Shown here: piece by piece, positions 2,972-16,963 of the stretch | Numbering within the stretch: position 1 is the first letter of the stretch | Layout of the letters: each line of letters opens with the position of its first letter | Origin: Nanobdellota archaeon | GTDB lineage: Archaea > Nanobdellota > Nanobdellia > Woesearchaeales > JACPBV01 | Reading direction: 5' to 3' | Length of the DNA: 40,891 nt | NCBI GenBank assembly: GCA_018813685.1 | Contig: JAHJAV010000055.1 | Location: 1 to 40,891 of the forward strand | Notes under the pieces: model-generated | What the model was told of the DNA's origin: nothing | What the model saw: the letters and a program-made list of their open reading frames with translations, nothing else | Databases searched by the model: none | Program-made: the position numbers and the translations under genes

Positions 2972-3169
2972 GGTTCTTTCTATTGATTTAATTTAATAAT
3001 AAAAAGATTGTTTTTTATCTCTAACATAGATTAAAATAAAGTATAAGAATAAACTATATTTTCTTTTTACACAATATTTAAATATAAGCTATACTTGGTA
3101 ATGTTTAATTGTTATAACTTTAGAGTTAAAATAAGATGTAACTTAAATTTGGTAAAAGTACTACGACAT

Positions 3170-3213
3170 GGTAAAAAAACGTAACATATATTAAGTAGTA
3201 ATGGTTTTTTACC
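3170..3213. promoter_or_regulatory. inverted repeat flanking a putative TrmB-gene promoter
   Basis: GGTAAAAAA (3170-3178) / TTTTTTACC (3205-3213) flanking the TATA-like acatatatta. A further TGGTAAAA copy sits around 3150. Confidence 0.35.
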
Positions 3214-3260
3214 CCATGAAGAAGTAAAAAAGCTTCTTCCAAAAAAGGGGGTGAATTTAG

Positions 3261-4067
3261 ATGATTGTAAAAGAAGAATTTTTAAGCAAATTGAGAAGGT
3301 ACTTCTCGTTAAACCTCTATGAGGTTAAGATATGGACTGCATTATTAAGCAGAGGGGTTTCAACAGCAGGCGAGCTTTCGGATATAGCAGATGTTCCAAG
3401 ATCAAGAAGCTATGATGTTCTTGAGAGTTTAGAGAAGAAAGGATTTGTTGTTATGAAACTTGGAAAGCCAATAAAATATCTGGCTGTTGCCCCACAGGAA
3501 GTTTTAGAGAGAGTAAAGAAGAATGTCAAAGAAGATGCTAAAGGCCAGATTGACAGATTAGAAGAGTTAAAGGGAACAGAAGTCATTGGTGAATTAAACC
3601 AATTGCATACACAAGGAGTAGAGCTTGTAGAGCCTTCTGATTTGAGCGGTTCCTTAAGAGGAAGACATAACCTGTATAATCATTTAGACCTTACAATAAA
3701 GAATGCTGAAGACAGTGTAACCTTGATGACAACTACCCAGGGATTTATAAGAAAAGTAGAGGGGTTGAAGCCAACTTTTGAGAAGATTAAGAAAAGAGGA
3801 GTAAAGATAAGGATTGCTGCTCCAATAACAAAAGATGCTATGAGCGCTGTTGATGAATTAAAAGGAATAGCAGAAGTAAGGCACACTGACAGCAAGGCAA
3901 GGTTTTGCATTGTTGACGGCAAAGAGCTTGTGTTTATGGTTTTAGATGATAAAGAAGTACATCCAACCTATGATGTTGGTGTATGGGTAAACACACCATT
4001 CTTTGCGCAGGCATTAGATACTTTGTTTGACTCTGCCTGGAAAGGGATGAAACCAATAGGGAAGTAA
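3261..4067 (+). CDS. TrmB-family transcriptional regulator (wHTH plus C-terminal effector domain)
   Basis: LNLYEVKIWTALLSRGVSTAGELSDIADVPRSRSYDVLESLEKKGFV is a typical TrmB N-terminal wHTH. The C-terminal part is PLD-like. Confidence 0.9.
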   Translation: MIVKEEFLSKLRRYFSLNLYEVKIWTALLSRGVSTAGELSDIADVPRSRSYDVLESLEKKGFVVMKLGKPIKYLAVAPQEVLERVKKNVKEDAKGQIDRLEELKGTEVIGELNQLHTQGVELVEPSDLSGSLRGRHNLYNHLDLTIKNAEDSVTLMTTTQGFIRKVEGLKPTFEKIKKRGVKIRIAAPITKDAMSAVDELKGIAEVRHTDSKARFCIVDGKELVFMVLDDKEVHPTYDVGVWVNTPFFAQALDTLFDSAWKGMKPIGK

Positions 4068-4122
4068 ATTCCTATTTTTTCTTTGTTTTTATAATAAAAT
4101 TTATATATTGGAGCGTATTACC

Positions 4123-4209
4123 ATGTATAAAATGATAGTGCTAGAGAGAATAAATGCTGTTTTGGATGAGTTCTTTCTAGATAGAAGCTGCTACTTTTAC
4201 TTTTGGTAA
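4123..4209 (+). CDS. putative aromatic-rich leader peptide MYKMIVLERINAVLDEFFLDRSCYFYFW (alternative start at 4132)
   Basis: Continuous ORF with a GGAG SD-like element at 4110-4113 and TATA-like tracts around 4090-4107. It ends tac ttt tac ttt tgg taa directly before a hairpin, upstream of the aromatic biosynthesis operon. Confidence 0.65.
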   Translation: MYKMIVLERINAVLDEFFLDRSCYFYFW

Positions 4210-4262
4210 GTCTCTGGGTTAGTCAGCTCAGGAGACTTCATTGTTCAACTTTTTATTCTTTT
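4208..4262 (+). promoter_or_regulatory. putative attenuator hairpin plus T-rich tract
   Basis: AAGTCTC-TGGG (4208-4218) pairs with CTCA-g-GAGACTT (4227-4238), loop TTAGTCAG. TTTTTATTCTTTT lies at 4250-4262. Confidence 0.55.
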
Positions 4263-4295
4263 AAGGCCAAAAAGGAGTAGACAGGATAATACAAA

Positions 4296-4314
4296 GAAAA
4301 AGCTTTGCTTTTTC
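4296..4314 (+). terminator. second hairpin in the aro leader (possible terminator)
   Basis: Perfect GAAAAAGC-ttt-GCTTTTTC. Confidence 0.5.
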
Positions 4315-4378
4315 AAAAAGTTTAAAAAGATAAGGTCATAAAAATGGAATAAGTAAACAAAATCAATAAGGAGAGAAA

Positions 4379-5197
4379 ATGGAACAAAAACTCATAGAAA
4401 AACTCGAAAAGCAGGCATTGCAGATCAGAATGGATGTGCTAGAGATGATAACAGAAGCTAAATCCGGGCATCCTGGCGGGTCGTTGTCTGCTGTTGATAT
4501 AATGACAGTGCTATACTTCCATAAGATGAGGTATAATCCTAAGAAGCCTAAGTGGGAAGATAGAGATAGGTTTGTGCTTAGCAAAGGGCATGCTTGCCCT
4601 GCATTATATGCTTGTTTAGCGAGAAGCGGTTATTTTCCATTGGCTAAATTAAAGACACTCAGAAAGATAGGATCTTGTCTGCAGGGACATCCTGAATCAA
4701 ATAAATGCTCTGGAATAGAGGCATCTACTGGGCCTCTTGGACAGGGATTGAGCTTTGCAAATGGTGTAGGCCTAGCGGGAAAGCTTGATAAGAAAGATTA
4801 CAAAGTGTATGTTATGCTGGGAGATGGTGAAGTGCAGGAAGGAAATATATGGGAAGCTGCAATGTTAGCTGCACATTACAAGCTGAATAATGTGATTGTA
4901 TTTTTAGACCATAACAGATTACAGATCGATGGTGAGCTGAAAGATGTGATGAATATAGAACCGATAAAGGATAAGTTTTCAGCGTTTGGATGGCATACTA
5001 TTGAGATAAACGGACATGATTTCAAAGAGATATTAAATGCACTGGATGAAGCAGATAAGGTAAAAGATAAGCCAATAATGATAATAGCAAATACAATAAA
5101 ATCAAAAGGTGTGGATTATATGGAAAACAAAGCAGAGTGGCATGGAAAGGCCCCTACTCAGGATCAGCTGAAAGAAGCGCTTGCGGAGTTGGTTTAA
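4379..5197 (+). CDS. transketolase, N-terminal (TPP-binding) subunit
   Basis: SGHPGGSLSAVDIMTVLYF, GHACPALYA, STGPLGQGLSFANG and VMLGDGEVQEGNIWEA. Confidence 0.96.
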   Translation: MEQKLIEKLEKQALQIRMDVLEMITEAKSGHPGGSLSAVDIMTVLYFHKMRYNPKKPKWEDRDRFVLSKGHACPALYACLARSGYFPLAKLKTLRKIGSCLQGHPESNKCSGIEASTGPLGQGLSFANGVGLAGKLDKKDYKVYVMLGDGEVQEGNIWEAAMLAAHYKLNNVIVFLDHNRLQIDGELKDVMNIEPIKDKFSAFGWHTIEINGHDFKEILNALDEADKVKDKPIMIIANTIKSKGVDYMENKAEWHGKAPTQDQLKEALAELV

Positions 5198-6130
5198 ATG
5201 GCAGAGCTGAAAGCTACAAGAGACGGATATGGAGAAGGGCTTGTTGAAGCTGGAAAGAATGAAAGTGTGGTAGCGTTAGATGCTGATCTGGCAGAATCTA
5301 CAAGATCAATAAAGTTCAAGGAGAAATATCCTTTGCGGTTTTTTGATGTGGGTATAGCTGAGCAGAACCTTGTTGCAACAGCTGCTGGCCTTGCTGCATC
5401 TGGGAAGATACCTTTTGCGTCTAGCTTTGCTGTGTTTATTACAGGAAGGGCTTATGACCAGATAAGGCTTAATGCAGGAATCTCGCATCTCAATATGAAA
5501 ATTGTAGGGTCTCATGCCGGTTTATTGACAGGAGAAGATGGTGCTTCACATCAATCGTTAGAAGATATTTCATTGATGAGGGGAATACCTGGTATGGTAG
5601 TGATACAACCTTGTGATTTTGTTGAGGCGAAAAAGGCAACAATCGAGATTGCAAAATATAAGGGGCCTGTCTATCTTAGGTTATCTCGAGGTAAGGTTCC
5701 TGTAATCAATGATGAAAATTATAAGTTTGAGATTGGAAAAGGGATTATGCTGAAGCAGGGAAAGGATATTGCGATAATTGCAACAGGCGCTTTAGTAAAT
5801 GAAGCTTTAATTGCCAGTGATATGCTGAAAGAAAAAGGGATTGGTGCAAGAGTGATAAATATCCATACGATAAAGCCGATTGATAAAGAGATTATAATTA
5901 AGGCTGCTAAAGAAACTGGATGTGTGATAACAGCAGAAGACCACAGCATATACGGCGGATTAGGTAGTGCTGTTGCAGAGATACTTGCTGAGAACTGTCC
6001 AACTAAAATGCACAGGATAGGTGTTAATGATAAATTTGGCGAGTCAGGAGAGCCATCTGAGCTTTACAAGAAATATGGATTAACAGCTGAAGATATAGTT
6101 AAGGCTGCTGAAAAATTGTTAAAAAAATAA
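5198..6130 (+). CDS. transketolase, C-terminal subunit
   Basis: [33 protein letters not shown] and pyrimidine-binding/C-terminal transketolase domains. Starts directly at the stop of the N subunit. Confidence 0.96.
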
Positions 6131-6146
6131 ATTAACGGAGGATAAG

Positions 6147-7160
6147 ATGATAATTGTATTAAAACCAAGGGCAAAGGAAAGTGAGGTTAAGGCTGTTGCT
6201 GAAAAGATAAAAAAGATGGGGCTTAAGCCGCATGTTTCAATGGGTGTAGAGAGAACAATAATAGGCGCAATAGGTGATGAATCATTGCTAAAAGAAGATC
6301 AGCTGAAAGCAATGGCTGTTGTAGAAAAGGTATTGCCCATAATGAAACCTTACAAATTAGTTTCAAGAGAGTTTCAAAAAGAAAATACTATAATTAAAGT
6401 AGGGGATGTAAAGATAGGCACAAATGATATTATTGTGATGGCTGGCCCATGCGCTGTTGAGAGTGAAAAACAGGTTATTGAAACTGCTAAAGCTGTAAAG
6501 AAAGCAGGAGGCCATATATTCAGAGGGGGAGCATTCAAACCAAGAACATCCCCATATTCATTCCAGGGAATGGGTGAGGAAGGATTAAAGTTATTAGCAA
6601 AAGCTAGAAATGTAACTGGAATGCCTATTGTGACAGAAGTCATGGATACAGCAGATGTTCCTTTGGTAGCGGATTATGCTGATATACTACAGGTAGGAAC
6701 AAGGAATATGCAGAACTTCAATCTGCTTAAGGCAGTCGGTAAAGTGAACAAGCCTGTAATGCTAAAGAGGGGATTAGCTGCTACATTAAATGAGTTTTTG
6801 ATGGCTGCTGAATATATCATGGCAGAAGGGAACCATAATGTAATATTATGCGAGAGAGGGATAAGAACATTTTGCACACATACAAGAAACACACTGGATT
6901 TGAATATTATTCCCATAATAAAGAAAGAGAGCCACCTTCCAATTATAGTTGATCCTTCGCATGGAACAGGGAATTATTCATTAGTTAGTCCAATGAGCAA
7001 GGCAGCTATTGCTTGCGGAGCAGATGGATTGATGATAGAAGTACATTCAAATCCAGAAGAAGCGACGTCAGATGGCGATCAGAGTTTGACGCCAAAGAGC
7101 TTTGCAAAACTGATGGAAGAGTTAAGGTCAGTTGCAAAAGCAGTAGGAAGAAGGTTATGA
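6147..7160 (+). CDS. aroF: 3-deoxy-7-phosphoheptulonate synthase (AroF/Thermotoga-like, N-terminal ferredoxin-like domain)
   Basis: [47 protein letters not shown] and [10 protein letters not shown]. Confidence 0.96.
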
Positions 7161-8251
7161 TGGAAAAAGTAAGATTGAATCTTAGGAAGGAAATTGACAA
7201 TTCTTATGAGATTTTAATAGATAAGAATCTCTTGAGTAAAGTGCCATCTGATCTGAAGAAGAGCAATGTTGGAAATAGATATTTGATAATAACAGATTCC
7301 AACATAAAGAAATTGTTTGGAGATAATCTGCTTGATTTGATGAGGAAAGAGGGATTGAAGGTAGATATTCTATCCTTTAAGGCAGGAGAGCAGAGCAAGA
7401 ATCTTGAAACGCTTGGGGAATTGTTAAGTGGTGCTCAGAAGTTAGGGCTAGATAGAAAGTCAGCGATAATTGCTCTTGGTGGGGGGGTTGTCGGAGATAT
7501 AGCAGGGTTTGTGGCAGCTACATATATGAGGGGAATAAATTATGCGCAGATTCCAACTTCACTGCTTGCAATGGCTGATTCAAGTGTGGGTGGAAAGGTA
7601 GCTGTAGATTTACCTACTGGAAAGAATATGGCAGGGGCATTTCATCAACCAAAGAAGGTATATATGGATGTGTCTATATTAAATGATCTTCCGCAGAAAG
7701 AAATGATTAATGGATTATCTGAGGTAGTGAAGCATGCTTTTATCATAGATAAAGGGCTTTTTGATTTTATCAATAAGAATCTTAGTAAAATATTGGATAA
7801 AGATTTAGATGTATTAGTTCAATTAGTGAAAAGAAACTGTGAGATAAAGGCAATGATTGTTGAGAAGGATGAAAAAGAAGCTGGACTGAGGAAGATTGTA
7901 AACTATGGGCATACAATAGGCCATGCTATAGAGACAATGACTCATTACAAAAAATATTCACATGGAGAAGCGGTTGCTATGGGGATGGTTGTAGAGGGAT
8001 TGATTGCCAGAAAGATTGGAATGCTTTCTGAAGATGGGTTGAGATTGCAGAATGAGATGATAAAGAAAGTTGGTCTGCCTGTAAAGATCCCTAAACTTGA
8101 AGCTGATAAAGTAATTAATGAATTAAAAAAGGATAAGAAAGTAGTGGGCGGTAAGATAGAATTTGTTTTGTTAGAGGCAATAGGAAAATCAAAGTATGGT
8201 GTGAGTGCCTCTAATGAAATAATAAAAGAGGCTTTAGAGGAAAGTATATGA
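7157..8251 (+). CDS. aroB: 3-dehydroquinate synthase
   Basis: [47 protein letters not shown] and [11 protein letters not shown]. Start placed at the MMEKVRLNL codon overlapping the upstream stop (ATGATGG). Confidence 0.95.
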
Positions 8252-9684
8252 TAGCTGTGCCGATAGCAGCTTCTATGACAAAGGAAGCTCTAAAAGACAT
8301 GAAAGAGGCCTCTAAATCTGCTGATGTGATTGAGTTAAGGCTTGACTGCATTAAAGATTTAGGGCTAGAGATTTTGTTAGCTAAGCGAATAAAACCAGTG
8401 ATTGTAACTACAAGGAGCAAGGCTGAGGGTGGAAGATCTAATATTAGTGAATCACGTAGAATAAAGTTAATTGAAAAGGCTATTGATCTTGGGGCTGAGT
8501 TTGTTGATGTTGAATTTTCTTTAGGCAGTGAGAAGATAAAAAGGATAATTTCTATAAGGGGCAAGACTAAAGTGATTGTGTCTTATCATAATTTTAAGGG
8601 GACTGATGAAAAAGAGATTATTGCGAAGTATGAAAAGATAAAACGATTAAAGCCAAATGTGATAAAGATAGTTAGTTTTGCAAACTCAATAGATGATAAT
8701 GCTGTTATGCTTAGACTGCTAAAGACTGCTAAAAAGGAAGGAAAGGATCTGATAGCTTTTTGCATGGGTGAGAAAGGTGAAGTGAGCAGGATATTATGCA
8801 ATTTTTTTGGCAGCTTTTTGACATTTGCTTCATTATGCAAGGGAAAGGAGTCTGCTCCAGGCCAGCTGGATGTAAAAACATTGAAGGGCTTGTATAGAAT
8901 AAATGAATTCAGAAATGGAGAAGTTTTTGGGTTAGTGGGAAATCCCGTAAAACAAAGTAAAGGCATATTGATACATAATGATGCTTTTAAGAAACTTGAG
9001 ATGAACAAAGTGTATGTAAATTTTTTAGTTGAAGATTTAAGTAGTTTTGTGAAAAGTTTTAGAAAGTTGATCAAGGGGTTTAGTGTAACTATTCCGTTTA
9101 AGCGTGAGATAATAAAACTTATTGATGGAGTAGATTTAACTGCTGGAAAGATTGGGGCAGTGAATACAGTAATTAATGAAAATGGGAAATTGATAGGGTA
9201 TAATACAGATGTAAAAGGAGCAATCAATGTGATAGAATCAAAGATGAAGATAAAAAACAAAAGAGTCTTGATGATCGGAGCAGGAGGAGTTGCAAGAGCA
9301 ATAGGTTATGGTGTGAAGGGCAAGGGCGGAAGATTGATAATATTGAACAGAACTGTAAGCAGGGCTAAAAGCCTTGGAAATGAACTTAAATGTGAGTATG
9401 GTGGACTAGATAAATTAAATAAGATCGATAAGGTGGATATTATAGTAAATGCAACTTCAATCGGGATGGTTCCAAAGGTTAATGAAATGCCCCTAGGTAA
9501 GGATAAACTTAGGAGAATAATTAAAAAAGGCGCATTGGTTTTTGATTCAGTGTATAATCCAAGAAAGACGAAACTTTTAAAAGAAGCTGAAAAACTAGGA
9601 TGCAATACAGCAGACGGATATGATATGTTCATCAATCAGGCTGATGAGCAATTCAAGCTGTTTACAGGGAGGAGATTAATATGA
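8248..9684 (+). CDS. aroDE: bifunctional 3-dehydroquinate dehydratase (type I) / shikimate dehydrogenase
   Basis: N-terminal AroD (VIELRLDCIK, VIVSYHNF, GSFLTFAS). C-terminal AroE (GLVGNPVKQSKGILIHN, IGYNTDVKGA, LMIGAGGVARAIGYG, DGYDMFINQADEQFKLFTG). Confidence 0.95.
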   Translation: MIAVPIAASMTKEALKDMKEASKSADVIELRLDCIKDLGLEILLAKRIKPVIVTTRSKAEGGRSNISESRRIKLIEKAIDLGAEFVDVEFSLGSEKIKRIISIRGKTKVIVSYHNFKGTDEKEIIAKYEKIKRLKPNVIKIVSFANSIDDNAVMLRLLKTAKKEGKDLIAFCMGEKGEVSRILCNFFGSFLTFASLCKGKESAPGQLDVKTLKGLYRINEFRNGEVFGLVGNPVKQSKGILIHNDAFKKLEMNKVYVNFLVEDLSSFVKSFRKLIKGFSVTIPFKREIIKLIDGVDLTAGKIGAVNTVINENGKLIGYNTDVKGAINVIESKMKIKNKRVLMIGAGGVARAIGYGVKGKGGRLIILNRTVSRAKSLGNELKCEYGGLDKLNKIDKVDIIVNATSIGMVPKVNEMPLGKDKLRRIIKKGALVFDSVYNPRKTKLLKEAEKLGCNTADGYDMFINQADEQFKLFTGRRLI

Positions 9685-10961
9685 AATTAGTTGTAGAAAA
9701 AACAGAGAAACTTGAAGGAGAGATTACTATTCCTGGCTCTAAATCACATACAATAAGGGCTGTAATAATCGCTTCATTGGCAGAAGGGATTTCAAAGATA
9801 AAAAATCCTTTAAAGTCAGATGACACAATGGCTGCTGTAAATGCTTGCACTGCTTTTGGCGCAAAGATAAATACAGATAATGAAAGTGAGTGGGTAATAT
9901 CAGGATTTAATCATAATCCGCAGAAGCCAGAAGGAGTTATTAATATGATGAATTCAGGAACTTCTCTTAGGCTGATTTCAGGTGTAATAGCTGCTCTTTG
10001 TGATTTTGAGATTGAGTTAGATGGTGATGCTTCATTAAGGGCAAGGCCAATGCAGCCTTTGCTTAAATCACTTAATCAATTAGGTGCAGAAGCTGTGTCT
10101 GTCAGCAATAATGGATACTGCCCAATAAAGATAAAAGGGAAGATGATTGGTGGAGATACTGAAGTAGTTGGAATGTCTTCCCAGTATATTTCCAGTTTGC
10201 TGATAGCATGTCCGCTGCTTGAAGAAGATACTGAGATAAGGGTTGTTAAGCCAAATGAAATTCCTTACATACGAATAACAATGAAATGGTTGGATGAGCA
10301 AGGCATCAAGTATGAAGTGTCTGAGGATTTTACTAAGTTTAAAGTTTTTGGAAAGCAAAGGTACAAATCTTTTGAGAAATCAATTCCAGCAGACTGGAGC
10401 TCAGCAGCATTTCCTTTAGTGGGGGCTGCAATTGTTCCATCAAATGTCTTGTTGAAAGGATTGGATATTAATGATGTTCAAGGAGATAAAGCTATTATTG
10501 ATTATCTTAAGAAAATGGACGCTGACGTTAGTATTGAAGGAGATGGAATAAGGATAAAAGGCAAGGCTTTGAAAGGATGTGAGCTTGATTTGAATGCAAC
10601 TCCTGATGCACTGCCTGCTTTAGCTGTACTGGGATGTTTTGCAGAAGGCACAACTGTCTTGTTTAATGTTCCACAAGCCAGGATAAAGGAAACAGACAGA
10701 ATAAAAGTAATGACAGAAGAGCTTGAAAGAATGGGTGCTGATATAAAAGAGAGGGATGAGGGATTGATAATACATAAAAGTGAGTTGAAAGGAAATAAAG
10801 TAAGAGGCCATAGTGATCATAGGATAGTTATGGCATTAAGCTTAGCTGGGATGATATCAACTGGAAAGACAGAGATAACAACTGCAGAGTCTATTGGTGT
10901 AACTTTTCCAGATTATGCTAAAAGTATGAAGGCCTTAGGGGCTAAAATCGAGGTGGTTTAG
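9681..10961 (+). CDS. aroA: 3-phosphoshikimate 1-carboxyvinyltransferase (EPSP synthase)
   Basis: IPGSKSHTIRAVI, NSGTSLRLISG, DASLRARPMQPLL, ARIKETDRI and SDHRIVMALSLAG. Confidence 0.96.
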   Translation: MKLVVEKTEKLEGEITIPGSKSHTIRAVIIASLAEGISKIKNPLKSDDTMAAVNACTAFGAKINTDNESEWVISGFNHNPQKPEGVINMMNSGTSLRLISGVIAALCDFEIELDGDASLRARPMQPLLKSLNQLGAEAVSVSNNGYCPIKIKGKMIGGDTEVVGMSSQYISSLLIACPLLEEDTEIRVVKPNEIPYIRITMKWLDEQGIKYEVSEDFTKFKVFGKQRYKSFEKSIPADWSSAAFPLVGAAIVPSNVLLKGLDINDVQGDKAIIDYLKKMDADVSIEGDGIRIKGKALKGCELDLNATPDALPALAVLGCFAEGTTVLFNVPQARIKETDRIKVMTEELERMGADIKERDEGLIIHKSELKGNKVRGHSDHRIVMALSLAGMISTGKTEITTAESIGVTFPDYAKSMKALGAKIEVV

Positions 10962-10962
10962 T

Positions 10963-12141
10963 ATGATGGGAAATAGTTTTGGAAGGTTGTTTAGGGTTAC
11001 AACTTGCGGTGAGTCTTATGGGATAGGGAAAGGTTCTGGATTATCAGTTATAGTAGATGGAGTGCCGCCTGGACTTAAGATTACAAAAGAAGATATACAG
11101 AAGGAGCTTGATAAAAGAAAGCCTGGAGTGGGTAAGTTGAACAGCCCTAGAAAAGAGACAGACCAATGCGCAATATTTGCAGGAATTGGGCAGGAAGGTG
11201 TTACAACAGGGGCTCCATTAGGAATCATAATCTATAATGTAGATACTCAAAAAGTGCATATTGAGCAGTATAGATCCTATAAGGATATATTTAGGCCAGG
11301 CCATGCAACCTATCCATTCTTTATGAAATATGGAGAGTCACAGGATTGGTGCGGTGCAGGAAGAGCATCTGGAAGAGAAACTGTAGCTAGAGTAGCAGGC
11401 GGAGCTATTGCAAAGATCATATTGGAAAGAGAAGGGATTGAGATAGTCTCATATACCAAAGAATGTATGGGGATAAAAACAAAAGAAATGGGTTTTGATG
11501 AGATAAAAAAGAATCGTGGAAAAAATGAGATAAACTGCCCTGATCTTGAAGCTGCTAAAAAAATGGAAGATGCTGTGTTAAAGATAAAGGGTGAAGGAGA
11601 TACAGCAGGAGGAGTAATAGAGCTTATTGCAAGAGGTGTTCCCCCTGGTTTAGGAGAGCCTGTCTTTGACAAGCTGAATGCAACAATAGCTCATGCTCTT
11701 GCTTCAATCGGAGCAGTTAAAGGAGTAGAGTTTGGAGCTGGATTTGGTGTAGGTAATATGAAAGGCTCTGAGAATAATGATCAGCCATATTTGACTAAAG
11801 ATGGAAAAGTTAGGTTCAAGACTAATAATGCCGGAGGATTTTTAGGCGGCATGACTAATGGAGAAGAGATTGTAGCTAGGATAGCTGTAAAGCCAACTCC
11901 TACAATATCAAAAAAACAGACTTCAATAAATATGAAGACAATGAAAGAAGAAGTGCTTTCACCGATAACAAGAAGAGATCCTACATTAGTTGGAAGGCTT
12001 TGGGCAGTGGCAGAGGCAATGATGGCAATAGCTATACTTGATTCATTGTACATGGCTAAAGCATATGATAGTATGGCTAGATTGGATAAGAAATGGATTA
12101 AGCTTAAAGAGTTAATAAAATGGACAAAGACAAGCCATTGA
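10963..12141 (+). CDS. aroC: chorismate synthase
   Basis: GNSFGRLFRVTTCGESYG, DVDTQ-like NVDTQ, RPGHATYPFFMKYG, GAGRASGRETVARVAGGAIAK and NNAGGFLGGMTNGEEI. Confidence 0.97.
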   Translation: MMGNSFGRLFRVTTCGESYGIGKGSGLSVIVDGVPPGLKITKEDIQKELDKRKPGVGKLNSPRKETDQCAIFAGIGQEGVTTGAPLGIIIYNVDTQKVHIEQYRSYKDIFRPGHATYPFFMKYGESQDWCGAGRASGRETVARVAGGAIAKIILEREGIEIVSYTKECMGIKTKEMGFDEIKKNRGKNEINCPDLEAAKKMEDAVLKIKGEGDTAGGVIELIARGVPPGLGEPVFDKLNATIAHALASIGAVKGVEFGAGFGVGNMKGSENNDQPYLTKDGKVRFKTNNAGGFLGGMTNGEEIVARIAVKPTPTISKKQTSINMKTMKEEVLSPITRRDPTLVGRLWAVAEAMMAIAILDSLYMAKAYDSMARLDKKWIKLKELIKWTKTSH

Positions 12142-12971
12142 TAGGAATAATAGGCGGAACAGGGCAGATGGGCCAGTGGTTCAAGAGATTCTTTGAGAGT
12201 AAAGGCTATAAAGTTGTTATAGCCAGCAGAAAGACCAGCATTAGTATACAGGAGTGCGCTTCTAAATGCGATATTGTGATAGTGAGTGTTCCGATAGATA
12301 TTACAGTTAAAACAATAAAAGAGATAGGGCCATTGATAAAGGAAGATGGATTGTTTATGGATTTAACTTCTATAAAGAAGGAGCCTGTTGAAGCTATGCT
12401 GAAATACAGCAAATGCGCAGTTATAGGAACACATCCTGTTTTTGGGCCTTCTGTAAAGACTATAAATAACCAGACAGTGGTATTGTGCCCTGCAAGGCCA
12501 AAGAAATGGCTTGAGTTTGTAAAAGATATATTTGAGAAGAATGGCGCAATTGTTAAGGTCACAACTCCTGAGAAGCATGACAAGATGATGTCTATCATAC
12601 AGGGATTAACACATTTTTCAACTATATGTGTAGCTCATGCTTTGAAAAAATTAGGAGTAGATGTTGAAGAAAGTATGCAGTATACTTCTCCAATCTATAA
12701 ATTAAGGATGGATATGGTCGGAAGGTTATTGAATCAGAATCCTGCATTATATGCAGATATAGCTATGCTTAACAGCGAGAACAAGAGATCAATAGAGGAA
12801 TATATCAAATCTACTAGAGAGCTGATAGGGATAATAAAAAGGAAGGATAGAGATGATTTTATCACATTCTTCAAAGAAGGCTCTAATTTTCTTGGAGATT
12901 TCAAAAAAGAAGCAACAGAGTATTCAGATTATGTTATAGAGCAATTGGTCAAGAAAGGGAGGCTAAGATGA
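12120..12971 (+). CDS. tyrA: prephenate dehydrogenase (no fused chorismate mutase)
   Basis: IGIIGGTGQMGQWFKRFFESKGYKV Rossmann motif, IGTHPVFGPSV and MMSIIQGLTHF. Overlaps the aroC 3' end. Confidence 0.92.
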   Translation: MDKDKPLIGIIGGTGQMGQWFKRFFESKGYKVVIASRKTSISIQECASKCDIVIVSVPIDITVKTIKEIGPLIKEDGLFMDLTSIKKEPVEAMLKYSKCAVIGTHPVFGPSVKTINNQTVVLCPARPKKWLEFVKDIFEKNGAIVKVTTPEKHDKMMSIIQGLTHFSTICVAHALKKLGVDVEESMQYTSPIYKLRMDMVGRLLNQNPALYADIAMLNSENKRSIEEYIKSTRELIGIIKRKDRDDFITFFKEGSNFLGDFKKEATEYSDYVIEQLVKKGRLR

Positions 12972-13777
12972 AGATCGCTACATTAGGTCCAGCAGGAACA
13001 TTCAGCCATGAGGCTTTACTTAAACGGGATAGGAAAGTTGAGATAATATTCAAGAATACTGTATGGGATGTTTTTGAAGCAGTGGATAATGATGAAGCTG
13101 AAGAAGGCATAGTTCCTATTGAGAATTCTGTTTCTGGCTCGATAGGGCTTACATTAGATGCACTTATGGAGTTTAAACTAAATATAATTGGAGAGATAAT
13201 ACTTCCTGTAAAGCATAATCTTGTTGGGTATGATGGAATAAAGGACATTAAAGTACTGTATGTACATCCTGTAACGTATGAGCAGTGTGAGAAGTTTATT
13301 AGGAAGAATATTAATGGAGTAAAGGTTATACAGACGAGCTCTAATGCTGCTTCTGCAGAGATCATTTCAAAAGAGAAGGATAAGACCAAGGCAGCGATTG
13401 TGCCAAGAGAAGCTATAGAGATATATAAATTAAAGGTAATAAAAAATGATATACAGGATAATAAGTTTAATGTTACAAGATTCGTTGTATTAAGCAAAAG
13501 TGATGGGAAGAAAAGTTCACGTGAGAGAACTTCTATTGCGATATATCCTCAGGCAGACAAGCCAGGACTGTTGTATTCTTTATTAGGCATATTTGCAAAG
13601 AGAAATATAAACCTGACTAAGATAGAGTCAAGACCGTCAAAAGGAAAGCTAGGTGATTATATCTTTTTTATAGATATGCAAGGCAATAAAGAAGATGAAA
13701 AGATAAAGGAAGCTTTTAAGATTATAGAAGAGGATTTCTTCCTTAAGGTTCTAGGATCTTACCCAAGAGAGTATTGA
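12968..13777 (+). CDS. pheA: prephenate dehydratase with ACT domain
   Basis: IATLGPAGTFSHEA, GIVPIENSVSGSIG, SNAASAE, NVTRFVVLS and C-terminal ACT (KPGLLYSLLGIFAKRNINLTKIESRPSKGKLGDYIFFID). Confidence 0.95.
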   Translation: MKIATLGPAGTFSHEALLKRDRKVEIIFKNTVWDVFEAVDNDEAEEGIVPIENSVSGSIGLTLDALMEFKLNIIGEIILPVKHNLVGYDGIKDIKVLYVHPVTYEQCEKFIRKNINGVKVIQTSSNAASAEIISKEKDKTKAAIVPREAIEIYKLKVIKNDIQDNKFNVTRFVVLSKSDGKKSSRERTSIAIYPQADKPGLLYSLLGIFAKRNINLTKIESRPSKGKLGDYIFFIDMQGNKEDEKIKEAFKIIEEDFFLKVLGSYPREY

Positions 13778-13779
13778 AT

Positions 13780-15300
13780 ATGGATGAGGAAAGATTAGCA
13801 CAGACATTGCATAATTATGAGAGAAAAGTTTTGAGTGTTCTTGATAAAGAGAGTACTGTAAGTGAGATTTCTTCTAAGAGCGGTTTAAAGGATATAGAAG
13901 TGATGAGAGGATTGCAATGGTTAGAGAATAAAGGCATTGTAAAGTTAAGGGAGGATGTGAAAGAGATAGTTGAATTGGATTCTAATGGTGAGAAGTATAG
14001 GGAAGGGGGGCTGCCTGAAAGAAGGTTTCTTAAGTTTGTTAAGAAAGATACTCCTGTTTCTGAGATTTTAAAAGAAGCAAAACTAAGCAATGAAGAGGTT
14101 AGTGTATGTTTAGGTGTGTTAAAGGGGAAGGCTGCTATAGCCATTAGGAAGGATAAGGAATTGATGGTTAGTATATTACCTCAGGGTGAGAAGATACTAC
14201 AGAAAGAAAGTTTAGAAGAGCTGTTTCTTAAGAAGAAATTTCCGATTTTGTTGAGTGAGCTTACAGATGAAGATAAATTTGCTCTGGATAGTTTAAGAAA
14301 AAGAAAGAATATTGTGAAAGTAGAGACTAGGAAAATAAGGAAAGCTGAGCTGACTGAATTTGGAAGGAAGTTAAGTAAGTCTGGAATAAAGTTTGAAGAG
14401 ACTTATGATAGGTTGACTCCTGCTATGGTTAGGGATGGTTCCTGGGCTAACAAAAAATTTAGAAGGTATGATGTAAAGATAAATGTTCCTTTAGTTTTTG
14501 GCGGCAAGAAACAACACTATGCAAGGTTTTTAGATGATGTTAGGGGTAAGTTTATCTCTTTGGGTTTTAGTGAGATGTTCGGGCCTATTGTAGAGACAGA
14601 ATTCTGGGATATGGATGCTTTATTTATGCCTCAGTTTCATTCTGCAAGAGATATACATGCTGCTTATTATGTGAAAGAGCCAAAGTATGGGAAACTTGAT
14701 AATTACATTGTAGAAAGGGTTAAAGAGTCTCATGAAATAGGGAAAGGAACAATAAGCAAAGGATGGCAGTATAAGTTTGATGTTAACAAGACTAAACAAT
14801 TGATATTAAGGACGCAGGGAACTGCTTTGTCTGCAAGGATGCTTGCTTCTAAAGAGTTGAAGATTCCAGGAAAGTATTTTGGGATTGCACGCTGTTTCAG
14901 GCCGGATGTTGTTGATGCTACACATAGTGCTGATTTTAATCAAGTAGAAGGGATTGTGATTGAAGAAGGTCTTAATTTCAGGCATCTTAAAGGATTGTTG
15001 AAGATGTTTGCAGAGGAATTTGCAGAGACAGACCAGATAAAGATAACTCCTGCTTATTTTCCATTTACAGAGCCGTCTGCTGAGCTGCATGCAAAGCATC
15101 CTGAGCTTGGGTGGATAGAGTTAGGAGGTTCTGGTATATTCAGACCTGAACTTGTAAAACCTTTGTTAGGGAGAGAGATATCTGTTTTAGCATGGGGGCT
15201 AGGGATTGATAGGTTAGCTATGTTTAAATTAGGGATAAAAGATATAAGGGAATTATTTTCACATAATTTAGATTTTTTGAAAGATGTTAAGGTAGTTTAA
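13780..15300 (+). CDS. pheS: phenylalanine--tRNA ligase alpha subunit
   Basis: wHTH N-terminus, FSEMFGPIVETEFWDMDALFMPQFHSARD, RCFRPDVVDATHSADFNQVEG and ELGGSGIFRPE. Start ATG 13780. Confidence 0.96.
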   Translation: MDEERLAQTLHNYERKVLSVLDKESTVSEISSKSGLKDIEVMRGLQWLENKGIVKLREDVKEIVELDSNGEKYREGGLPERRFLKFVKKDTPVSEILKEAKLSNEEVSVCLGVLKGKAAIAIRKDKELMVSILPQGEKILQKESLEELFLKKKFPILLSELTDEDKFALDSLRKRKNIVKVETRKIRKAELTEFGRKLSKSGIKFEETYDRLTPAMVRDGSWANKKFRRYDVKINVPLVFGGKKQHYARFLDDVRGKFISLGFSEMFGPIVETEFWDMDALFMPQFHSARDIHAAYYVKEPKYGKLDNYIVERVKESHEIGKGTISKGWQYKFDVNKTKQLILRTQGTALSARMLASKELKIPGKYFGIARCFRPDVVDATHSADFNQVEGIVIEEGLNFRHLKGLLKMFAEEFAETDQIKITPAYFPFTEPSAELHAKHPELGWIELGGSGIFRPELVKPLLGREISVLAWGLGIDRLAMFKLGIKDIRELFSHNLDFLKDVKVV

Positions 15301-15301
15301 A

Positions 15302-16963
15302 ATGCCAACAATAAAATTTTCATTAAAGGACTTGCAGAATTTGGTTGGAAAGAAGCTTGAGATTGATGAAGTTTCTAAGCTAGTTGAGTATGGCAAGGGT
15401 GAGTTAGAGGGTTATGATAAGGATTCTGATGAAGTTAGTGTGGAGTTTGGAGATACAAACTTGCCTTATTTATGGTCTATTGAGGGATTTGCTCGGTTGG
15501 TTAATGGTGTGTTGGGGGGTTGTAAGGGCATACCTAAGATAGAAATTAAAAAAAGTGATTATAAATTAATTGTTGATGAATCTGTTAAATATGTAAGGCC
15601 ATATATTGCTGCTTTTGTAGCTAAAGGGCATAAGGTAGATGATTATCTGATAAAGCAGATGATACAATTGCAGGAGAAGTTGTGCGAGAGTTATGGGCGT
15701 CGGAGGTTGAAGGTAGCGATTGGTGTTTATTCTTATGATAAAATAAAGTTTCCTGTTCATTACAAAGCAACTTCGCCAGAGTCTGTTAAGTTTATACCTT
15801 TAGAGTTTAAGAAAGAGATGACCCAACAGGAGATTCTGGAAGAGCATCCAACTGGAAAAGAGTATGCATGGATATTAAAGGATGCTAAGAAATACCCTAT
15901 ATTGGTTGATAGTGCTGATTCTGTGTTGAGCTTTCCGCCTATAATAAACTCTAATTTAACTGGGAGGGTTGTTTCGGGAGAAGAGCATCTTTTTGTAGAG
16001 TGTACTGGAATAGAGCTTGAGCCTTTGCTTTTGGCTATGAATATAATGGCGTATGCTTTTTATGATAGAGGATTTGAGATATATTCTGTTGATGTTAAGT
16101 ATGAAAATAAGAAAATTACAACTCCCCTTTTGTTTAATGATAAGATAAAGATTACTCTGGAGCAGGTCAAATCACTTTTAGGTTTAGAACTTAAGAATTC
16201 TGAGATTAAAATGTTGCTTGAGAAGATGGGTTATGATGTAGGTAGTGATTTGAATGTTAAGATTCCATCTTATAGGAAGGATATACTTCATCCTAATGAT
16301 GTTATAGAAGATATAGGAATTGCTTATGGTTATGATAAATTTGATGAGATTCCATTGACCTCATATACTGTTGGAGAGACTTCTTTGCTGGTTAAGTTTA
16401 GAAATAATATAAGGGAGATGCTTATCGGATTAGGGTTCCAGGAGGTTTTGAGTCCGATATTATCCAATAAGGCTGTGCTTTACGATAAGATGAATATTCC
16501 TGATTTTGGCACTATAGAACTTACTAATTTCATGTCTGAGACTTATTCGTGCGTAAGGAGTTGGCTGTTGCCTATGCTTATTGATTTTTTATCTAAGAAT
16601 AAGCATTTTGAGTATCCACAAAGGGTTTTTGAGCAGGGGCTAGTTACTGTGCACAAAGGTGATTCTGTTGTGGATTATGAGAGAATTGCTGTTGTTTCTG
16701 CTAATGATAAAGCTGATTATACAGAGATAAGGCAGGTTATAGATTATTTGTTTAGGATGTTGGATGTTTCTTATAGTGTTGAGGACTGTGAGCATGATTC
16801 TTTTATTCCTGGAAGGGTCGGAAGAGTTATTGTAAATGGAAAGAAAGTAGCTTATATTGGGGAGATATCACCTAAGGTTCTTAATAATAATGGGATAGAA
16901 GTTCCTGTTGTAGGGCTAGAGCTGAATATTTCTGAGTTGTTTGAAATTGTTGGAAAGAACTAG
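15302..16963 (+). CDS. pheT: phenylalanine--tRNA ligase beta subunit (archaeal type)
   Basis: FEFGDTNLPYLWSIEG-like start region, IPSYRKDILHPNDVIEDIGIAYGYDKF. Directly follows pheS. Confidence 0.95.
   Translation: MPTIKFSLKDLQNLVGKKLEIDEVSKLVEYGKGELEGYDKDSDEVSVEFGDTNLPYLWSIEGFARLVNGVLGGCKGIPKIEIKKSDYKLIVDESVKYVRPYIAAFVAKGHKVDDYLIKQMIQLQEKLCESYGRRRLKVAIGVYSYDKIKFPVHYKATSPESVKFIPLEFKKEMTQQEILEEHPTGKEYAWILKDAKKYPILVDSADSVLSFPPIINSNLTGRVVSGEEHLFVECTGIELEPLLLAMNIMAYAFYDRGFEIYSVDVKYENKKITTPLLFNDKIKITLEQVKSLLGLELKNSEIKMLLEKMGYDVGSDLNVKIPSYRKDILHPNDVIEDIGIAYGYDKFDEIPLTSYTVGETSLLVKFRNNIREMLIGLGFQEVLSPILSNKAVLYDKMNIPDFGTIELTNFMSETYSCVRSWLLPMLIDFLSKNKHFEYPQRVFEQGLVTVHKGDSVVDYERIAVVSANDKADYTEIRQVIDYLFRMLDVSYSVEDCEHDSFIPGRVGRVIVNGKKVAYIGEISPKVLNNNGIEVPVVGLELNISELFEIVGKN

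Follow-up and report, generated by a model that had tools for sequence, protein, structure and literature searches.

The 40,891-nt window analyzed here (the whole stretch of DNA, which is contig C128 in a draft archaeal genome assembly totaling 1.56 Mb) very probably contains a ribosome-mediated (leader-peptide) attenuator upstream of an aromatic amino acid operon (probability roughly 0.87), in which ribosomes stalling at cognate codons would set operon expression. Leader-peptide attenuation is a textbook bacterial mechanism. The leader ORF (MIVLERINAVLDEFFLDRSCYFYFW, 4132..4209, plus strand) is flanked upstream by a TrmB-like gene (3261-4067) and downstream by a split gene for transketolase that starts at 4379. 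The proposed sensor codons, TAC TTT TAC TTT TGG (4192..4206, plus strand), encode YFYFW at positions −5 to −1 relative to the stop codon at 4207-4209. This ORF was the sole return when both strands of the window (40 kb) were scanned for leaderless short ORFs with biased C-termini. An initial annotation had described an aromatic-rich ORF ending in YFYFW, a hairpin and a T-rich tract, all three of which were found in the sequence. Its reading of them as a leader-peptide attenuator is supported by conservation of such leaders in 45 genomes and by Ile, His and Trp leaders at their cognate operons.

The leader ORF contains in-frame ATGs at 4123 (upstream) and 4132 (second). A predicted TATA box of the leader promoter, TTTATATA (4100..4107, plus strand), begins 32 nt from the ATG at 4132 and 23 nt from the ATG at 4123. 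TATA-like octamers start 28-36 nt 5′ of the leader ATG in 38 of the 45 leaders. In this count the nearest fitting ATG was used for leaders with several in-frame ATGs; using the 5′-most start only, the peak was again at 30-36. Because the 32-nt spacing fits this pattern, the functional start is most likely 4132, giving a 25-codon leader ORF at the extreme 5′ end of a leaderless mRNA, and the ATG at 4123, which the initial annotation had chosen, is predicted to lie upstream of the transcription start. The N-terminus beginning at 4132 also has homologs in G003 (MNIIER) and G054 (MILEKL). It follows from a leaderless start that GGAG (4110-4113), previously taken for a ribosome-binding site, likely belongs to the promoter and has no Shine-Dalgarno role. 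Promoters and starts are given as predictions, since all of the genomes are draft assemblies. Leaderless transcripts account for 1.4-72% of mRNAs among the archaea studied (PMC8116511).

In the window the gap between the leader stop and the first structural gene is 169 nt, with a Shine-Dalgarno-like GGAG and the ATG of that gene at 4370..4381 (plus strand). NCBIfam scans identified the genes of the operon (4379..16963, plus strand) as the N and C halves of transketolase, DAHP synthase, aroB, aroDE, aroA, aroC, prephenate dehydrogenase, prephenate dehydratase, pheS and pheT. Of the aromatic operon genes at 8248-10961, where aroDE and aroA are adjacent, none was identified as a shikimate kinase gene. 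The DAHP synthase (6147-7160) is bacterial-like, in that nearly all of its 80 best matches in the genome collection were bacterial, at 54-66% identity.

A search for DAHP synthase found the gene in 77 of the 353 genomes of the order. By reading upstream of the DAHP synthase genes in these carriers we collected 45 aromatic-rich leaders, in 45 genomes and 21 families, upstream of DAHP-synthase or transketolase-aro operons. The initial annotation had offered conservation in relatives as a check, and across these 45 genomes the reading frame, its aromatic codons and the hairpin were conserved or recurrent. Among the nearest relatives, the leaders of G003 (MNIIERMHIVLNEFFLNNSFFYFYFW) and G054 (MILEKLQKGIEIIINEFFLGKSSLFYYFI) lie between the TrmB-like gene and transketolase as in the window, the leader of G001 (MKPSVIGQMLAVLFPEFFLGKKFFYYFWYV) is immediately 5′ of DAHP synthase, and in G004 the version upstream of DAHP synthase is long and rich in Phe, ending FTFSFWYV. 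Among families the peptides are strongly divergent (for example RLFSSFRYFFFYFKH, GLAYSFYYFSY, LDWSAFFYFYF and SFFSFFGYYFFYW), all with a terminal aromatic run. A profile search with three homologous leader peptides recovered one further true relative, G001; the remaining weak matches were not leaders wherever their genomic context was read. At least 10 genomes with DAHP synthase had no detectable leader, and no clear leader was found at the loci tested in other orders of the same class. The leader at L100 is identical to that of G145, and in G342 an aromatic leader (MAKGTTVCTSVFSFSYASFYCW, L348 9642-9711) stands ahead of a gene resembling prephenate dehydratase, not ahead of DAHP synthase.

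Because the gene is bacterial-like, a DAHP synthase scan with a single protein returned almost only bacteria, and we used these loci as a negative control. At least 5 aromatics in 12 residues were found at only 3 of the 77 bacterial loci, which argues that the leader mostly did not travel with the gene; the DAHP synthase gene itself was probably acquired laterally. One of the three is a Caldithrix ORF (MKSLKNTFYYYGYYYYFGGWCSDSQ, L085, upstream of a DAHP synthase match at 1345), which resembles the archaeal leaders as an aromatic-rich short ORF ahead of a related DAHP synthase but is bacterial.

Given that Phe codons are rich in T and that the TrmB-like gene is followed by a T-rich tract, we considered the possibility that the ORF is a chance reading frame in the terminator of that gene, or that it encodes a small hydrophobic protein with no regulatory role. 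An ATG ORF with at least 7 aromatics among its 12 terminal residues was present in 32 of 59 DAHP-synthase upstream regions (54%), and the same criterion gave frequencies of 0.0004 in dinucleotide shuffles (0.04%) and 0.0035 in 1,429 control segments (0.35%). Moreover, the aromatic residues are placed by their distance from the stop codon. Among 41 distinct leaders the aromatic frequency was 100% at codon −3, 93% at −5, 90% at −4, 73% at both −2 and −6, and 29% at −12; inclusion in this set required 5 or more aromatics among the 12 terminal residues, a criterion that alone does not fix positions. A peak at −3 to −5 would be expected if what is read is the position of the ribosome relative to a stop-anchored stem. 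The pooled pN/pS was 0.11 over the last 27 codons of five codon-aligned leaders from genomes of one genus, and homologous peptides were present in four genomes related to the window, indicating coding selection. From the aromatic placement, the pN/pS value and the chance controls we conclude that the leader ORFs behave as real coding sequences. Since Ile and His leaders matching their own pathways also contradict a chance origin, we regard that explanation as very improbable.

Leaders of the same design were found ahead of other amino acid pathways. Among 145 genomes searched for citramalate synthase there were 15 loci, 12 of which had an Ile-rich leader. One is in the window's own genome, where MSYLMTKNNISMIFLVIGIIAIIF (G000:C73, L452:2787-2713, minus strand) lies ahead of citramalate synthase and TTTATATA precedes the leader ATG by 32 nt; in G054 the Ile leader MKTAIAIKRGIFLAIAIIIIII is followed by a stem and CCATTGTT. 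A leader scan covering 0.97 Mb of one genome, G044, yielded 83 leaderless intergenic ORFs, the most biased of which, MPKINTICGISITSIIGIIISITIII, precedes citramalate synthase (TIGR00977 score 447 bits, cut-off 450). In that ranking the Ile leader of cimA was first, the aromatic leader of aroF second and the aromatic/Trp leader of trpE fourth, so that three of the top four precede cognate genes.

His leaders were found in G036 (MIGIMISNNGFVLASHHHH, with CATTGTC next and hisI at 64 nt), in G034 (ending VGYLHHH, upstream of a hisI-like gene) and in G052 (ending NSFHHHC, a TTG start being assumed, upstream of hisG). Trp leaders were found in G143 (ending SLWTWC, then CATTGTT and trpE), in G044 (ending PYFWCFWE, upstream of trpE) and in G237 (MSMKTRFKQNWRWN, upstream of a second DAHP synthase). 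Near hisG and trpE of the window's own genome no His or Trp leader was found. Short ORFs with clustered cognate codons thus occur upstream of aromatic, Ile, His and Trp biosynthetic operons, and of all the evidence this match of leader residue to pathway speaks most strongly for tRNA charging as the signal read.

The same comparison bears on two other explanations. In a TnaC-like arrest peptide the free amino acid would be sensed through the nascent chain instead of through tRNA charging. Consistent with such a peptide, conservation extends beyond the aromatic codons: the EFFL codons GAG TTC TTT CTA (4168..4179, plus strand) are kept in G000, G003, G054 and G001, several wobble positions included. 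However, TnaC and SecM depend on a specific conserved peptide, whereas the leader peptides vary widely among families and share only runs of the cognate residue, with His or Ile replacing the aromatics before his genes or cimA; arrest of this type is therefore improbable. Alternatively, the adjacent TrmB-like DNA-binding protein might control the operon and leave the leader a minor role, since the TrmB/TrmBL2-like gene is directly upstream in G000, G003, G004 and G054. The TrmB-like gene occurs in nearly every genome of the order (343 of 353), beside many different neighbors, however, and most leaders, as well as those for Ile and His, were found without a TrmB-like neighbor, so we consider this explanation very unlikely too. 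At 74% identity or more among the best matches listed, the TrmB-like protein is unusually conserved for a regulator, and its neighbors vary.

We next describe the RNA downstream of the leader. A stem-loop with arms AAGTCTC and GAGACTT (4208..4238, plus strand) folds with −13.9 kcal/mol (z −2.66), and none of 200 shuffles folded equally well. The hairpin that had been placed directly after the ORF is thus present, but its 5′ arm already begins inside the stop codon. In most leaders the stem begins in or just past the stop codon, and in an arm permutation test on 45 distinct aromatic and Ile leaders the mean score of native arms was 17.0 compared with 12.1 for permuted arms (p<1e-4). Arm sequences vary among families; pairing holds within each sequence and not between sequences. 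The structure is therefore placed for ribosome-dependent folding, with the stem anchored at the stop and the cognate codons peaking at −3 to −5, and we infer that it responds to the ribosome.

Directly 3′ of the 3′ arm in the window is a CATTGTT motif (4239..4245, plus strand). No 6-mer was more enriched downstream of leader stop codons than CATTGT (17 of 56, with 1.26 expected), which is usually in this position; GTTTCT ranked second. In aromatic, Ile, His and Trp leaders CATTGT(T/C) comes after the stem or after the stop codon (for example in L256, L277 and L287), and three leaders, two for His and one for Trp, have CATTGT 6-7 nt past the stop with no obvious stem. Candidate roles for CATTGT(T/C) are an RNA polymerase pause, an FttA site or a pairing partner. 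A reading of CATTGTT as a second ORF with a TTG start was rejected, as it was not conserved. Pseudoknots between the loop and downstream sequence occurred in single sequences and were absent as a shared feature within the closest group.

Further downstream, a T-rich tract (TTTTTATTCTTTT at 4250-4262) and a second, weaker hairpin with AAAAAGGAGTAGA (together 4249..4284, plus strand) constitute a candidate terminator or alternative structure. The second hairpin had a z value of −1.85, with 10 of 200 shuffles as good, and G003 and G054 have similar hairpins in the corresponding position. In these three loci the T-rich tract and second hairpin could terminate transcription, and termination at U-tracts with aCPSF1/FttA is established in archaea (PMC7515710). 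Runs of five or more T residues downstream of leaders were only modestly enriched (33% versus 12%), and the U-tract and second hairpin are not shared throughout the class. No classical GC-rich intrinsic terminator was present, and covariation gave no support to a mutually exclusive alternative fold. An Rfam search of 3000-6000, T-box and amino-acid leaders included, gave no match at E≤1.

These features suggest the following mechanism. Transcription would start at about 4130, producing a leaderless mRNA with the 25-codon leader as its first ORF. A ribosome footprint extends about 12 nt beyond the start of the A-site codon, a value that comes mainly from bacteria. With charged Phe-, Tyr- and Trp-tRNA, the ribosome would reach the stop codon and its footprint would cover the 5′ arm of the stem. 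If Phe-, Tyr- or Trp-tRNA were short, the ribosome would stall some 6-18 nt short of the stop, at codons −2 to −6, whereupon the stem at 4208-4238 would form, the leader RNA would refold and the operon would be expressed (de-attenuation). Because a ribosome at the stop would cover the 5′ arm and a ribosome stalled at codons −3 to −6 would free it, we infer that the stem forms on starvation and is lost under replete conditions, like the bacterial 2:3 antiterminator. Sequence comparison establishes the leader and its frame, where the cognate codons sit, the stem anchored at the stop, and the agreement of amino acid with pathway. The output step could be FttA and U-tract termination (PMC7515710, PMC8448881).

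The same sensor could instead act by translational attenuation, with the position of the leader ribosome controlling folding or ribosome loading at the start of the next gene and not termination. Some Ile leaders end about 31-55 nt 5′ of the cimA start (G235, G056 and G003), leaving no room for a U-tract, and the g110 aromatic leaders of G150, G164 and G166 are 70 nt from aroF without a T-run. Where the leader ends about 31 nt ahead of cimA, too near the next gene for a terminator, control at the level of translation is the likelier output. By contrast, the window has its 169-nt gap, within which lie the T-rich tract and the second hairpin shared with G003 and G054, and pairing of the CATTGT/3′-arm region with the downstream start region showed no native excess over chimeras (−7.42 versus −7.42). 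Taken over all leaders, translational attenuation is a serious possibility to which we give somewhat less than an even chance. We are evenly divided on the broader proposition that aromatic, Trp, His and Ile leader-peptide attenuators operate on leaderless mRNAs throughout this archaeal order, with a stop-anchored stem plus CAUUGU as an output unlike bacterial terminators and antiterminators that would work via archaeal RNA polymerase, FttA/aCPSF1 or ribosome loading.

Like the bacterial pheL, pheM, trpL, hisL and ilv leaders (known from Enterobacteria, with similar ones in Actinobacteria), the proposed leader-peptide attenuator combines a short ORF in which cognate codons form a run just ahead of the stop, an RNA stem close to that stop and a downstream biosynthetic operon for the cognate amino acid, here including pheS and pheT. 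It differs from them in its archaeal host, leaderless mRNA and TATA promoter, in the stem that starts in the stop codon, in the CATTGT motif, and in having neither a GC-rich intrinsic terminator nor an Rfam family match. T-box riboswitches likewise sense tRNA charging upstream of amino-acid operons, but here the sensor is a translated ORF. TrmB/TrpY-type regulators and promoter-proximal aCPSF1/FttA termination do operate in archaea, although no translated leader or codon sensing is described for them.

According to a 2021 paper, no attenuation or antitermination was known in archaea (PMC8448881), and a literature search, mostly of open-access papers without bioRxiv preprints, returned no report of archaeal leader-peptide attenuation; both agree with the view of the initial annotation that the mechanism is not established in this domain. 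Relative to the bacterial attenuators, the new elements would be another domain of life, leaderless mRNAs and the lack of a classical terminator. If the mechanism is correct, coupling of archaeal transcription and translation would be tight enough to serve gene control across an order and for several amino acids, and these small-genome, mostly uncultured archaea would possess an amino-acid-sensing mechanism.

Inspection of the region between the leader and the operon also revealed an A/T-rich inverted repeat, GAAAAAGCTTTGCTTTTTC, at 4296-4314. A 29-nt near copy of this repeat occurs elsewhere in the same genome (G000:C47:2385-2413, L002), and G003 carries other inverted repeats at the matching position.
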